Assembly (NCBI GenBank): GCA_022562275.1
Contig: JADFPP010000028.1
Coordinates: forward strand, 1 to 37,548
Source: Bacteroidota bacterium
GTDB taxonomy: Bacteria > Bacteroidota > Ignavibacteria > Ignavibacteriales > Ignavibacteriaceae
Reading direction: 5' to 3'
Length of the DNA: 37,548 nucleotides
This document shows, one piece after another, positions 16,636-17,820 of this stretch. Position numbers and translations under genes: made by a program. Below the pieces are notes generated by a model that did not search any database, was not told the origin of the DNA, and saw nothing but the letters and a program-made list of their open reading frames with translations. Positions within the stretch are counted from its first letter, which is position 1, and each line of letters opens with the position of its first letter.

Positions 16636-16703
16636 TCCACGTTAGTTCATCCCGATAAAATCGGGATCGGCTGTTATCCCGACGAAGTCGGGATGTAAGT
16701 TCG
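16636..16703 (+). pseudogene. tRNA-Asn remnant 1, with two arms replaced by palindromes
   Basis: Three segments match the intact tRNA-Asn in order: TCCACGTTAGTTC (11 of 13), CGGCTGTT (8 of 8) and GTAAGTTCG (9 of 9). The D-loop region is replaced by ATCCCGATAAAATCGGGAT (16649-16667). The 3' side of the anticodon arm is replaced by ATCCCGACGAAGTCGGGAT (16676-16694). The 3' acceptor half is absent. It cannot fold as a tRNA. Confidence 0.85.
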
Positions 16704-16727
16704 GAAGGAATCAGGAATAAAATACAT

Positions 16728-16799
16728 TCCGCGTTAGCTCAATGGTAGAGCATTCGGCTGTTAACCGAAGGGTTGTAAGTTCGAGTCTTACACGCGGAG
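16728..16799 (+). tRNA. tRNA-Asn (GTT)
   Basis: A 72-nt cloverleaf forms: acceptor TCCGCGT with ACGCGGA, D stem GCTC with GAGC, anticodon stem TTCGG with CCGAA and loop CTGTTAA (anticodon GTT at 16760-16762), and T arm GTAAG TTCGAGT CTTAC. The discriminator base is G, as expected for Asn. CCA is not encoded. It is followed by a terminator and the first GIY-YIG gene. Confidence 0.97.
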
Positions 16800-16804
16800 C
16801 TAAA

Positions 16805-16828
16805 ATCCGGCAGTTGCCGGATTTTTTA
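16805..16828 (+). terminator. tRNA-Asn terminator hairpin
   Basis: ATCCGGC and GCCGGAT pair around an AGTT loop, then six Ts. The hairpin at 17521-17538 is its exact reverse complement (loop AACT). A near copy lies inside the dispersed repeat at 35029-35046. Confidence 0.85.
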
Positions 16829-16829
16829 T

Positions 16830-17087
16830 ATGGAATACAATTTATACATATTAAGATCAATAAAGGATTATAAATATTATGTAGGTATTTCAAAGAACCC
16901 ACGAAGAAGATTAGAATATCATAACACAATAGAAAAAGGATTTACATCGAGATACCGTCCGTGGAAGATAGTGTTTACAAAAAAGTTTAAGACTAAAGCT
17001 GAAGCGATGACAGCGGAGAAAAAGGTAAAAGGATGGAAAAGTAAAAAGATGATTGAAAAATTAATTAACGGTGAAATAATTTTATAA
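16830..17087 (+). CDS. Single-domain GIY-YIG nuclease 1
   Basis: The 85-residue protein is a stand-alone GIY-YIG domain of the URI/UPF0213 type. YIL (residues 6-8) and YYVGI (residues 16-20) form the GIY and YIG elements, PRRRLEYHN supplies the catalytic Arg, and EKGFTSRYRPWKIVF and EAMTAEKKVKGWK follow with the conserved Glu. It would cut DNA with metal ions. The ATG lies immediately after the tRNA terminator, and the stop is directly followed by a broken tRNA-Asn copy. The last 50 bases are almost identical to those of GIY-YIG gene 2. In Bacteroidota, such genes often sit beside tRNA and rRNA genes; a homing role is inference. Confidence 0.85.
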   Translation: MEYNLYILRSIKDYKYYVGISKNPRRRLEYHNTIEKGFTSRYRPWKIVFTKKFKTKAEAMTAEKKVKGWKSKKMIEKLINGEIIL

Positions 17088-17100
17088 GCATTCGGCTGTT
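17034..17100. repeat. 67-bp direct repeat, copy 1 (GIY-YIG 3' end plus tRNA-Asn piece)
   Basis: It runs from TGGAAAAGTAAAAAG in GIY-YIG gene 1 through GCATTCGGCTGTT of the tRNA remnant. It matches 17419-17485 at 65 of 67 positions, far better than the rest of the two genes. Confidence 0.9.
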
Positions 17101-17157
17101 ATCCCGATGCAGTCGGGATGTAAGTTCTCCCGACAAGGTCGGGATTACACGCGGAGC
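17088..17157 (+). pseudogene. tRNA-Asn remnant 2 (3' part) with two palindromes
   Basis: It follows the GIY-YIG 1 stop with no gap. GCATTCGGCTGTT, GTAAGTTC and TACACGCGGAGC are identical to the intact tRNA and in order. Between them are ATCCCGATGCAGTCGGGAT (17101-17119, replacing the anticodon 3' arm) and TCCCGACAAGGTCGGGAT (17128-17145, replacing the T loop). The 5' acceptor half is missing. Confidence 0.88.
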
Positions 17158-17165
17158 AAAGAATA

Positions 17166-17192
17166 ACCCCGGTTTATTATCGGGGTTTTTTT
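17166..17192 (+). terminator. Terminator after tRNA-Asn remnant 2
   Basis: ACCCCG and CGGGGT pair around a TA-rich loop and are followed by a run of Ts, 23 nt before the next GIY-YIG gene. Confidence 0.8.
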
Positions 17193-17214
17193 ATTATTAC
17201 GAGAGATAAAACCA

Positions 17215-17472
17215 ATGAGTTGTTTCCTCTATATATTAAAATCTAAGACTAACGACATTTATTATACTGGTCAATCCGAGAATCCCCCTAAAAGACTTTC
17301 ATTTCATAATTCTATTGAAAAAGGATTTACCGCTCGTTATCGTCCGTGGAGAATTGTTTTTCAACAAGAATTTCCAGATAGAAAGAAAGTAAAAGCTGCC
17401 GAAAGAAAAGTGAAATTCTGGAAAAGTAAAAAGATGATTGAAAAATTAATTAACGGTGGAATAATTTTATGA
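17215..17472 (+). CDS. Single-domain GIY-YIG nuclease 2
   Basis: The 85-residue paralogue of GIY-YIG 1 has YIL (6-8), YYTGQ (16-20), PPKRLSFHN with the catalytic Arg, EKGFTARYRPWRIVF and the conserved Glu in AAERKVKFWK. The N-terminal two thirds have diverged from gene 1, but the last 17 residues differ at only one position. The DNA there is nearly identical, which suggests gene conversion or repeated capture of the same 3' end. The ATG follows the terminator of remnant 2, and the TGA stop touches remnant 3. Confidence 0.85.
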   Translation: MSCFLYILKSKTNDIYYTGQSENPPKRLSFHNSIEKGFTARYRPWRIVFQQEFPDRKKVKAAERKVKFWKSKKMIEKLINGGIIL

Positions 17473-17485
17473 GCATTCGGCTGTT
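17419..17485. repeat. 67-bp direct repeat, copy 2
   Basis: This is the second copy of the repeat at 17034-17100, with two substitutions. It joins the 3' end of GIY-YIG gene 2 to the tRNA-Asn piece GCATTCGGCTGTT. Confidence 0.9.
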
Positions 17486-17516
17486 CTCCCGACAAGGTCG
17501 GGATTACACGCGGAGC
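17473..17516 (+). pseudogene. tRNA-Asn remnant 3, collapsed to one palindrome
   Basis: GCATTCGGCTGTT and TACACGCGGAGC from the tRNA flank a single TCCCGACAAGGTCGGGA palindrome (17487-17503). The palindrome is the same as the second one in remnant 2. Remnant 3 therefore looks like remnant 2 after deletion of the part between its two palindromes. Confidence 0.88.
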
Positions 17517-17520
17517 TAAA

Positions 17521-17543
17521 ATCCGGCAACTGCCGGATTTTTT
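17521..17543 (+). terminator. Terminator after tRNA-Asn remnant 3, inverted copy of the tRNA terminator
   Basis: The hairpin (17521-17538, loop AACT) is the exact reverse complement of the one after the intact tRNA (loop AGTT). The flanking TAAA and T-run are the same in both places. Confidence 0.85.
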
Positions 17544-17560
17544 ATATTTGAGTAAAAATT

Positions 17561-17794
17561 ATGTTCTACATTTACGTATTATATTCACCTAAATTTGATA
17601 GAATCTATATAGGTCAAACGAACAATATAGAAGGGAGAGTAGAGCAACATAATACAGGAAGATCCAGATATACGAAACGATATATACCCTGGGAATTAGT
17701 ACACTATGAAAAGTTTGCTACAAGGTCGGAAGCAATGAAAAGAGAGAAAGAGCTAAAGTCACATAAAGGTCAGGATTACACTCCGAGCAGATAA
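17561..17794 (+). CDS. Single-domain GIY-YIG nuclease 3, tail merging into a tRNA-like end
   Basis: This 77-residue member is of the more common Bacteroidota type. FYIYVLYS and IYIGQTNN form the GIY-YIG pair, IEGRVEQHN carries the Arg, and YIPWELVHYEKFATRSEAMK and REKELKSHKG carry the Glu. The last residues (GQDYTPSR) are encoded by GATTACACTCCGAGC (17774-17788), which matches the tRNA-Asn 3' end at 13 of 15 bases. The gene therefore seems to end inside a fourth tRNA-derived piece. A terminator hairpin overlaps its stop. Confidence 0.85.
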   Translation: MFYIYVLYSPKFDRIYIGQTNNIEGRVEQHNTGRSRYTKRYIPWELVHYEKFATRSEAMKREKELKSHKGQDYTPSR

Positions 17795-17820
17795 AACCCG
17801 GGCCATTCCCCGGGTTTATT
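17794..17820 (+). terminator. Terminator closing the tRNA/GIY-YIG cluster
   Basis: AAACCCGGG (17794-17802) and CCCGGGTTT (17809-17817) pair around a 6-nt loop, followed by TATTATTTTT. Confidence 0.85.

Follow-up and report, generated by a model that had tools for sequence, protein, structure and literature searches.

Small GIY-YIG nuclease genes beside tRNA genes in Bacteroidota: probable minimal homing-like elements that patch the gene they would break

The closest described counterpart of the locus reported here is SegB of phage T4, a free-standing GIY-YIG homing endonuclease whose gene lies in a tRNA cluster; SegB cuts in the tRNA region and drives its inheritance or its segmental amplification (PMC2988022; PMC13096335). 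In both cases, a GIY-YIG nuclease gene is lodged among tRNA genes. However, SegB lies between tRNA genes in phages, and no half-tRNA patch, hairpin-broken remnants or comparable range of tRNAs has been described for it. A second counterpart is the genomic island that integrates into a tRNA gene, whose classic signature is a duplicated tRNA 3′ end at the far border. The likeness would be that the tRNA is restored by incoming DNA and that its displaced 3′ end lies at the far border, but the units described below have no recombinase, are shorter than 0.5 kb and also exist in a 5′-half version. The third counterpart comes from fungal mitochondria, as at atp6 in Allomyces, where a homing endonuclease gene brings a duplicate gene end with it. 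Partial gene copies that accompany homing endonuclease genes of fungal mitochondria have been noted (PMC4162613). These elements and ours appear alike in that a host gene receives an insertion, a replacement end is supplied and the displaced end is left behind; the fungal elements, however, occupy protein genes of an organelle, whereas here the hosts are mostly bacterial tRNA genes, the nuclease has 85 amino acids and the remnant carries hairpins.

Two further comparisons concern the nuclease itself and the logic of the element. In sequence and fold, the protein resembles the small GIY-YIG proteins of UPF0213/COG2827 and Slx1. Those UPF0213 proteins whose structures have been solved are annotated as no more than hypothetical, and Slx1, unlike the present elements, is a host repair nuclease that needs Slx4. 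Cleave-and-rescue gene drives are synthetic constructs, in which a nuclease against an essential gene is combined with a rescue copy of that gene. By analogy, the elements considered here may likewise pair a putative nuclease against an essential gene with a rescue copy; unlike the drives, they are natural, and a recoded (uncuttable) rescue copy belongs to the synthetic drive.

The window, that is, the whole stretch of 37,548 nucleotides that was analyzed, is contig 7 of a 3.4-Mb draft genome of an Ignavibacteriaceae bacterium (GCA_022562275.1). Its array occupies positions 16635-17816 of the forward strand: a broken copy of tRNA-Asn precedes an intact one, and three GIY-YIG ORFs follow, every one of them trailed by a tRNA-Asn 3′ remnant. 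The broken copy (16635-16703), a 5′-side piece recognized by direct reading, hairpin scan and tRNA match, is split by two hairpins, TCCCGATAAAATCGGGA in the D-arm region (16650-16666) and TCCCGACGAAGTCGGGA after the anticodon (16677-16693). The sole intact tRNA-Asn(GTT) follows at 16728-16800 (ARAGORN; Rfam RF00005, 72.2 bits), and then a terminator-like hairpin with a T-run (16806-16827; this and the other terminator-like hairpins were found by direct reading), immediately next to which lies the ATG of the first nuclease. ORF 1 (16830-17087, stop at 17085-17087; 85 aa; Pfam PF01541, E = 3e-16) falls in a tRNA-Asn clade of the nuclease tree, and its dN/dS relative to the gene at locus L080 is 0.27. 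Directly behind its stop lies the first displaced 3′ piece (17088-17157; tRNA positions ~22-73), in which tRNA alignment and hairpin scan recover positions 22-36, 47-55 and 61-73, exact and in order, separated by the palindromes TCCCGATGCAGTCGGGA and TCCCGACAAGGTCGGGA (hairpins at 17102-17118 and 17128-17144). After the next terminator-like hairpin and T-run (17167-17192) comes ORF 2 (17215-17472; 85 aa; Pfam GIY-YIG, E = 1e-15), which belongs to the tRNA-Asn clade and is not the sister of ORF 1. Behind it, the second displaced piece (17473-17516; same methods) holds tRNA positions 21-35 and 61-73 around a single palindrome (hairpin at 17487-17503), followed by a terminator-like hairpin and T-run at 17522-17543. 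ORF 3 (17561-17794; Pfam GIY-YIG, E = 5e-18) is shortened to 77 aa and belongs to an Asn/Met clade. Its 3′ end enters the tRNA remnant, the degraded tRNA-Asn 3′ end GATTACACTCCGAGCA being read directly within its last codons (17774-17789); alignment of the flank with the tRNA gave no alignable tRNA fragment past the ORF 3 stop. The last terminator-like hairpin lies at 17797-17816.

The original prediction had described one intact tRNA-Asn with a palindrome-filled copy before it, then a repeated series of GIY-YIG gene, tRNA 3′ piece and terminator, and finally a third GIY-YIG gene whose last codons resemble a tRNA 3′ end; ARAGORN, Rfam, Pfam, the hairpin scan and the in-order tRNA positions behind ORFs 1 and 2 bear out each of these points. 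Palindromes of the form TCCCGA..TCGGGA occur seven times in the whole window, against 0.02 expected by chance, and five of the seven lie within the 1.2 kb of the array. An Rfam search of the window returned tRNA only, with no ribozyme core around the ORFs and no group I intron; the ORF listing gave no recombinase or integrase and no ORF besides the nucleases in the window's units, and NCBIfam assigned no family. Elsewhere in the same genome, regularly spaced or paired TCCCGA..TCGGGA palindromes are found off known tRNA genes (C54:23752-24022, C46:69224-69261, C59:19495-19532 and C66:24006-24043). An assembly artefact was ruled out, as the same architecture is present in five single-contig genomes (G006, G012, G023, G030 and G056).

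The encoded protein is small and plain. Seven residues (Y6, Y17, G19, R27, H31, E63 and K67), which make up a GIY-YIG-type active site, are invariant in 15 diverse members, and the AF2 model (pLDDT 95.5) is a single bare GIY-YIG domain. Its closest folds are UPF0213 and the branched-DNA nuclease Slx1, in keeping with the sequence matches (1zg2, E = 2e-15; Slx1, E = 8e-7). All 85 amino acids are taken up by the catalytic fold, with no separate DNA-binding module and no DNA-binding arm of the I-TevI type. The bare domain thus leaves target specificity open, and judging from the model it is a reasonable idea that the nuclease recognizes DNA structure.

The array is one case of a widespread pattern. 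Relatives of the nuclease are present in 53 of 59 near genomes and in 125 of 198 Bacteroidota genomes, and contigs named as Ignavibacteriae, Chlorobium, Bacteroidetes and two candidate-phylum bacteria carry them. Genes were collected by protein similarity alone, not by proximity to tRNA genes, which gave 223 distinct GIY-YIG genes; 197 of these, with at least 300 bp on both sides, were used for the tRNA counts. A co-directional tRNA lies within 300 bp of 124 of the 197 and within 1.4 kb of 163, while an antisense tRNA within 300 bp was found for none (0/197). By our own estimate, from ~45 tRNA genes in 3.4 Mb, a tRNA that close is expected by chance in ~1% of cases. According to ARAGORN, the linked tRNAs span 27 anticodon classes (one call is ambiguous). 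The association with tRNA fragments that the original prediction proposed to look for in other genomes is found widely, and so is the contact between fragment and stop codon, since remnants of the downstream type begin at the nuclease stop (median offset -2). The accompanying remark that small GIY-YIG genes near tRNAs are known in Bacteroidota has no support in the literature searched: that search, made largely outside subscription journals, gave no account of tRNA-linked GIY-YIG elements in bacteria, of REP together with GIY-YIG, or of COG2827/UPF0213 proteins so linked, and the pattern is apparently undescribed. Carriage by phages or plasmids was considered and set aside, as a search able to detect only close relatives returned no relative of ORF 1 from viral contigs or plasmids.

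The strongest evidence on mechanism is the polarity of the remnants. Throughout the remnant sample, the tRNA is intact on the near side of the nuclease gene and a displaced part of it lies at the far border. With the nuclease downstream of the intact gene, the remnant beyond it extends to the tRNA 3′ end in 85 of 105 cases and starts at nucleotides 1-5 in 6; where it is upstream (36 of the 141 remnants), the remnant starts at nucleotides 1-3 in 34 of 36 and reaches the 3′ end in 2. These counts take in tandem copies and related genomes and so are not fully independent. The remnant is thus almost always the outer-side half, as expected if a unit with a replacement half had been inserted into the gene. 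Broken copies beside the tRNAs of two genomes, most of them without a nuclease gene, follow the same rule: upstream, 8 of 9 are 5′ parts and none of the 9 reaches the 3′ end, while all 12 downstream copies do. Strong chained tRNA matches occur in 10 of 66 own flanks in the window's genome versus 2 of 760 (0.3%) mismatched tRNA-flank comparisons, and in 11 of 63 versus 1 of 728 in G056; G063, which has one such nuclease gene, gave none in 66 flanks. The null rate of chained matches is 0-0.3%.

Some broken halves stand on their own. At six loci of the window's genome (L015, L016, L017, L020, L024 and L033), hairpin-broken tRNA halves adjoin intact tRNA-Met, -Val, -Gly, -Thr, -Arg, -Glu and -Gln, with no recognized nuclease gene beside them. 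In another genome (L239, G087), many tRNA-Asn 3′ remnants with the same hairpin form a tandem array, mostly with no nuclease between them.

We consider that the units are probably minimal, free-standing, homing-like selfish elements, each made up of a GIY-YIG gene and a half-tRNA patch, which patch the tRNA gene that they break. The nuclease would break the matching tRNA gene, and repair from an element-bearing template would then install the unit. The patch, a copy of one half of a particular tRNA gene, would restore an intact tRNA, so that the host keeps a working one. What is observed, all on one strand, is an intact tRNA to one side of the nuclease gene and, to the other, the leftover outer half, which is the 3′ half where the nuclease lies downstream and the 5′ half where it lies upstream. 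The restored tRNA could presumably be invaded again, the newest unit then adjoining the intact tRNA, with older ones decaying farther out. One tRNA-Asn of the window is occupied by three nucleases of apparently separate ancestry. The displaced halves carry hairpins inserted in the tRNA loops. In this light, the claim of a tRNA-linked nuclease module that duplicates tRNA sequence, much as an attachment site is duplicated, gains strongly from the cross-genome polarity, the isotype-specific clades and the apparently empty site described below. Its statement that the module captures the tRNA 3′ half is refined: on the most plausible reading, the remnant is what was displaced of the old tRNA, and the new half would be supplied by the element. 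Duplication of the 3′ half likewise holds for the downstream type, and a mirror-image 5′ form exists beside it.

As in homing endonucleases, there is a GIY-YIG domain with conserved active-site residues, and the gene sits at or in a conserved target gene that is the same across hosts; the separate DNA-binding module for site specificity is absent. We therefore describe the units as working like a homing element rather than as established members of that group, since cleavage of the tRNA gene is deduced from the nuclease family and the usual DNA-binding module is missing. The bare catalytic domain, which does not explain specificity, speaks against homing. So do two further points: the restored tRNA should still hold the target unless it is protected, and plain homing does not predict the hairpins that most remnants carry. 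As nuclease-free scars exist, the nuclease may not be the sole driver.

The ancestry of the nucleases bears on how arrays grow. On a tree of 200 proteins, which rests on 85 columns and leaves many forks open, the tRNA label changes 44 times, against 142.6 in shuffled labels (0 of 200 shuffles as low). For the same rows, isotype (14 states) requires 28 changes and host family (21 states) 59; nuclease clades track tRNA identity more than host family. One tRNA-Asn clade (support 100/99) spans Ignavibacteria, Chlorobium and other Bacteroidota. ORFs 1 and 2 of the window lie in it as non-sisters, and ORF 3 lies in the separate Asn/Met clade. Because the three occupy separate places in the tree, the array looks like three separate arrivals at one tRNA-Asn, and not like the rounds of copying by one module that had been suggested for it. 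Saturation affected 140 pairs; in each of the 30 for which dS could be measured, dN/dS is below 1 (median 0.16), and on these codon comparisons the ORFs are under purifying selection, as proteins. In downstream-side arrays, the tRNA-proximal ORF scores better by >5 bits in 14 cases and the distal one in 2 (p = 0.004); such better preservation of proximal copies is expected if new units enter at the intact gene. A congener, G004, carries one unit at the syntenic place, with a nuclease 89% identical to ORF 1. In another congener (G005), only a single tRNA-Asn and a terminator stand downstream of the same ccmF-like gene (Pfam), which is apparently an empty site at a partly syntenic locus, a single case in which the upstream flank alone is shared. 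As its downstream flank differs, the exact unit ends cannot be drawn from this comparison.

The same data bear on local tandem amplification, in which unequal or microhomology recombination would duplicate a nuclease gene beside a tRNA along with part of that tRNA, the tRNA itself receiving no insertion. Near-identical tandem units of fixed period in four genomes (G006, G030, G023 and G105) show that local amplification also occurs beside separate arrivals; the process has a precedent in the SegB/tRNA-Tyr proposal for T-even phages (PMC13096335), and if one breakpoint of a duplication falls within the tRNA, the outcome is identical to an additional unit in the array. Local amplification leaves unexplained, however, the recurrence of given clades at one and the same tRNA across many host families, the mirror-image 5′ form, the nuclease-free scars of the same polarity and the three separately placed nucleases of the window, and we regard it as a rather unlikely origin of the units.

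Among 101 unique inserts in the remnants, 67% have at least 60% of their bases paired; the share is 1.2% for length-matched ORF pieces and 10% for shuffled inserts. The inserts enter the tRNA at 21^22, 35^36 and 56^57, that is, in the D, anticodon and T loops, and many hairpins replace the anticodon or T arm instead of inserting. Inserts at 56^57 are mostly two adjacent, equal mini-hairpins: eight of the nine 22-nt inserts are exactly 4-3-4 twice, and other doubles are 3-3-3, 5-5-5 or 6-3-6 twice. Stems in tRNA-Asn remnants show compensating pairs (C-G/T-A at pair 2; A-T, T-A and C-G at pairs 6 and 7). Hairpin sequences are diverse across tRNAs and genomes, and the architecture is kept. We dropped the idea that the palindromes are one transposable sequence, as stems differ between tRNAs and genomes while the layout is constant. 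A REP/RAYT-type element does not fit either: the nuclease is of the GIY-YIG type and not an HUH transposase, and the hairpin sequences are diverse. Hairpins may block re-cleavage of the scar or alter the remaining target site; they may break up homology that could delete the unit; or they may be a by-product of break repair.

Related genes also occur at other targets. In G193 (L235, reverse strand 1308-1720), a nuclease gene is preceded by 35 bp copied from the start of an NAD-dehydratase gene and followed by that gene in intact form; the displaced fragment terminates in a palindrome that is a fold-back of its native CGGGAT. The insertion pattern is not confined to tRNA. In G106 (L228, reverse strand 1276-2048), the P3 region of the RNase P RNA gene houses a GIY-YIG ORF with a 19-bp inverted repeat at its borders. 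P1 pairs across this ORF: one strand, AGGAAAGTC, precedes it, and the matching strand, GACTTTCCT, lies at the opposite end of the RNA. GIY-YIG genes of one clade lie 100-200 bp downstream of tmRNA at L007, L103 and L135, and no tmRNA remnant is visible beyond them. The small GIY-YIG genes of a second branch lack a nearby tRNA and have REP-like repeats at their flanks, for example, GTCATTCCCAACTTGATTGGGAATCT or CACCCTGAGCGGAGTCGAAGGG (L008, L062, L089, L099, L100, L109, L124, L130, L131, L142 and L145).

Could the hairpins be primary? Structured RNA genes would then receive short palindromes in their hairpin loops, either mobilized by the GIY-YIG nuclease, as REPs are by RAYTs, or with the nuclease as a passenger. 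The well-paired inserts at three fixed places, the stereotyped double mini-hairpins, the nuclease-free scars, the branch with REP-like flanks, the gene in the P3 region of RNase P RNA and the fold similarity to Slx1 are all in favor of this reading. Hairpins alone, however, do not explain a half-tRNA duplication with strict polarity, many of them replace rather than insert, and the insert sequences vary widely, which makes this an improbable primary cause in our judgment.

The remaining explanations fare worse. Ordinary tRNA-targeted genomic islands, in which the nuclease would be cargo and the scars would be the work of a tyrosine recombinase, would account for the 85 of 105 remnants that reach the 3′ end, like the far-border signature of islands; but the window's units have no integrase or other gene, 5′-type units are common (36 of 141) and the remnant is broken by hairpins at fixed loops, so we give this origin very little credence. 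Action of the nuclease on the tRNA itself, as RNA, or on the host tRNA supply as a toxin or regulator, with linkage for co-expression, would suit the strict co-direction with the tRNA and the translation start directly after the tRNA or its terminator, but characterized GIY-YIG relatives cut DNA, no partner antitoxin gene is present, and the remnants, the arrays and the tmRNA, rnpB and protein-gene cases go unexplained, which leaves it hardly any likelihood.

Starting from the homing-like reading, a bolder proposal can be made, which we put forward tentatively and regard as doubtful in its full form. The units may represent a new class of bacterial mobile element. Hairpin-forming DNA of essential RNA genes (tRNA, tmRNA and RNase P RNA) would be the target of a minimal, structure-specific nuclease of the GIY-YIG type akin to Slx1, a half-gene patch would keep the host alive, and new loop hairpins, perhaps products of fold-back repair, would mark the displaced half. 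This would be a natural form of break and rescue, spread across Bacteroidota and at least two candidate-phylum bacteria. If the homing-like reading is right, one of the smallest known selfish elements would have invaded many tRNA genes of Bacteroidota and patched them, following the logic of a cleave-and-rescue drive. It would account for the numerous unassigned "GIY-YIG nuclease family" genes, the tRNA pseudogene arrays and the palindromes in these genomes, and it would offer a simple system in which to study how a nuclease of 85 amino acids without further domains locates its target and how breaks give rise to hairpins.
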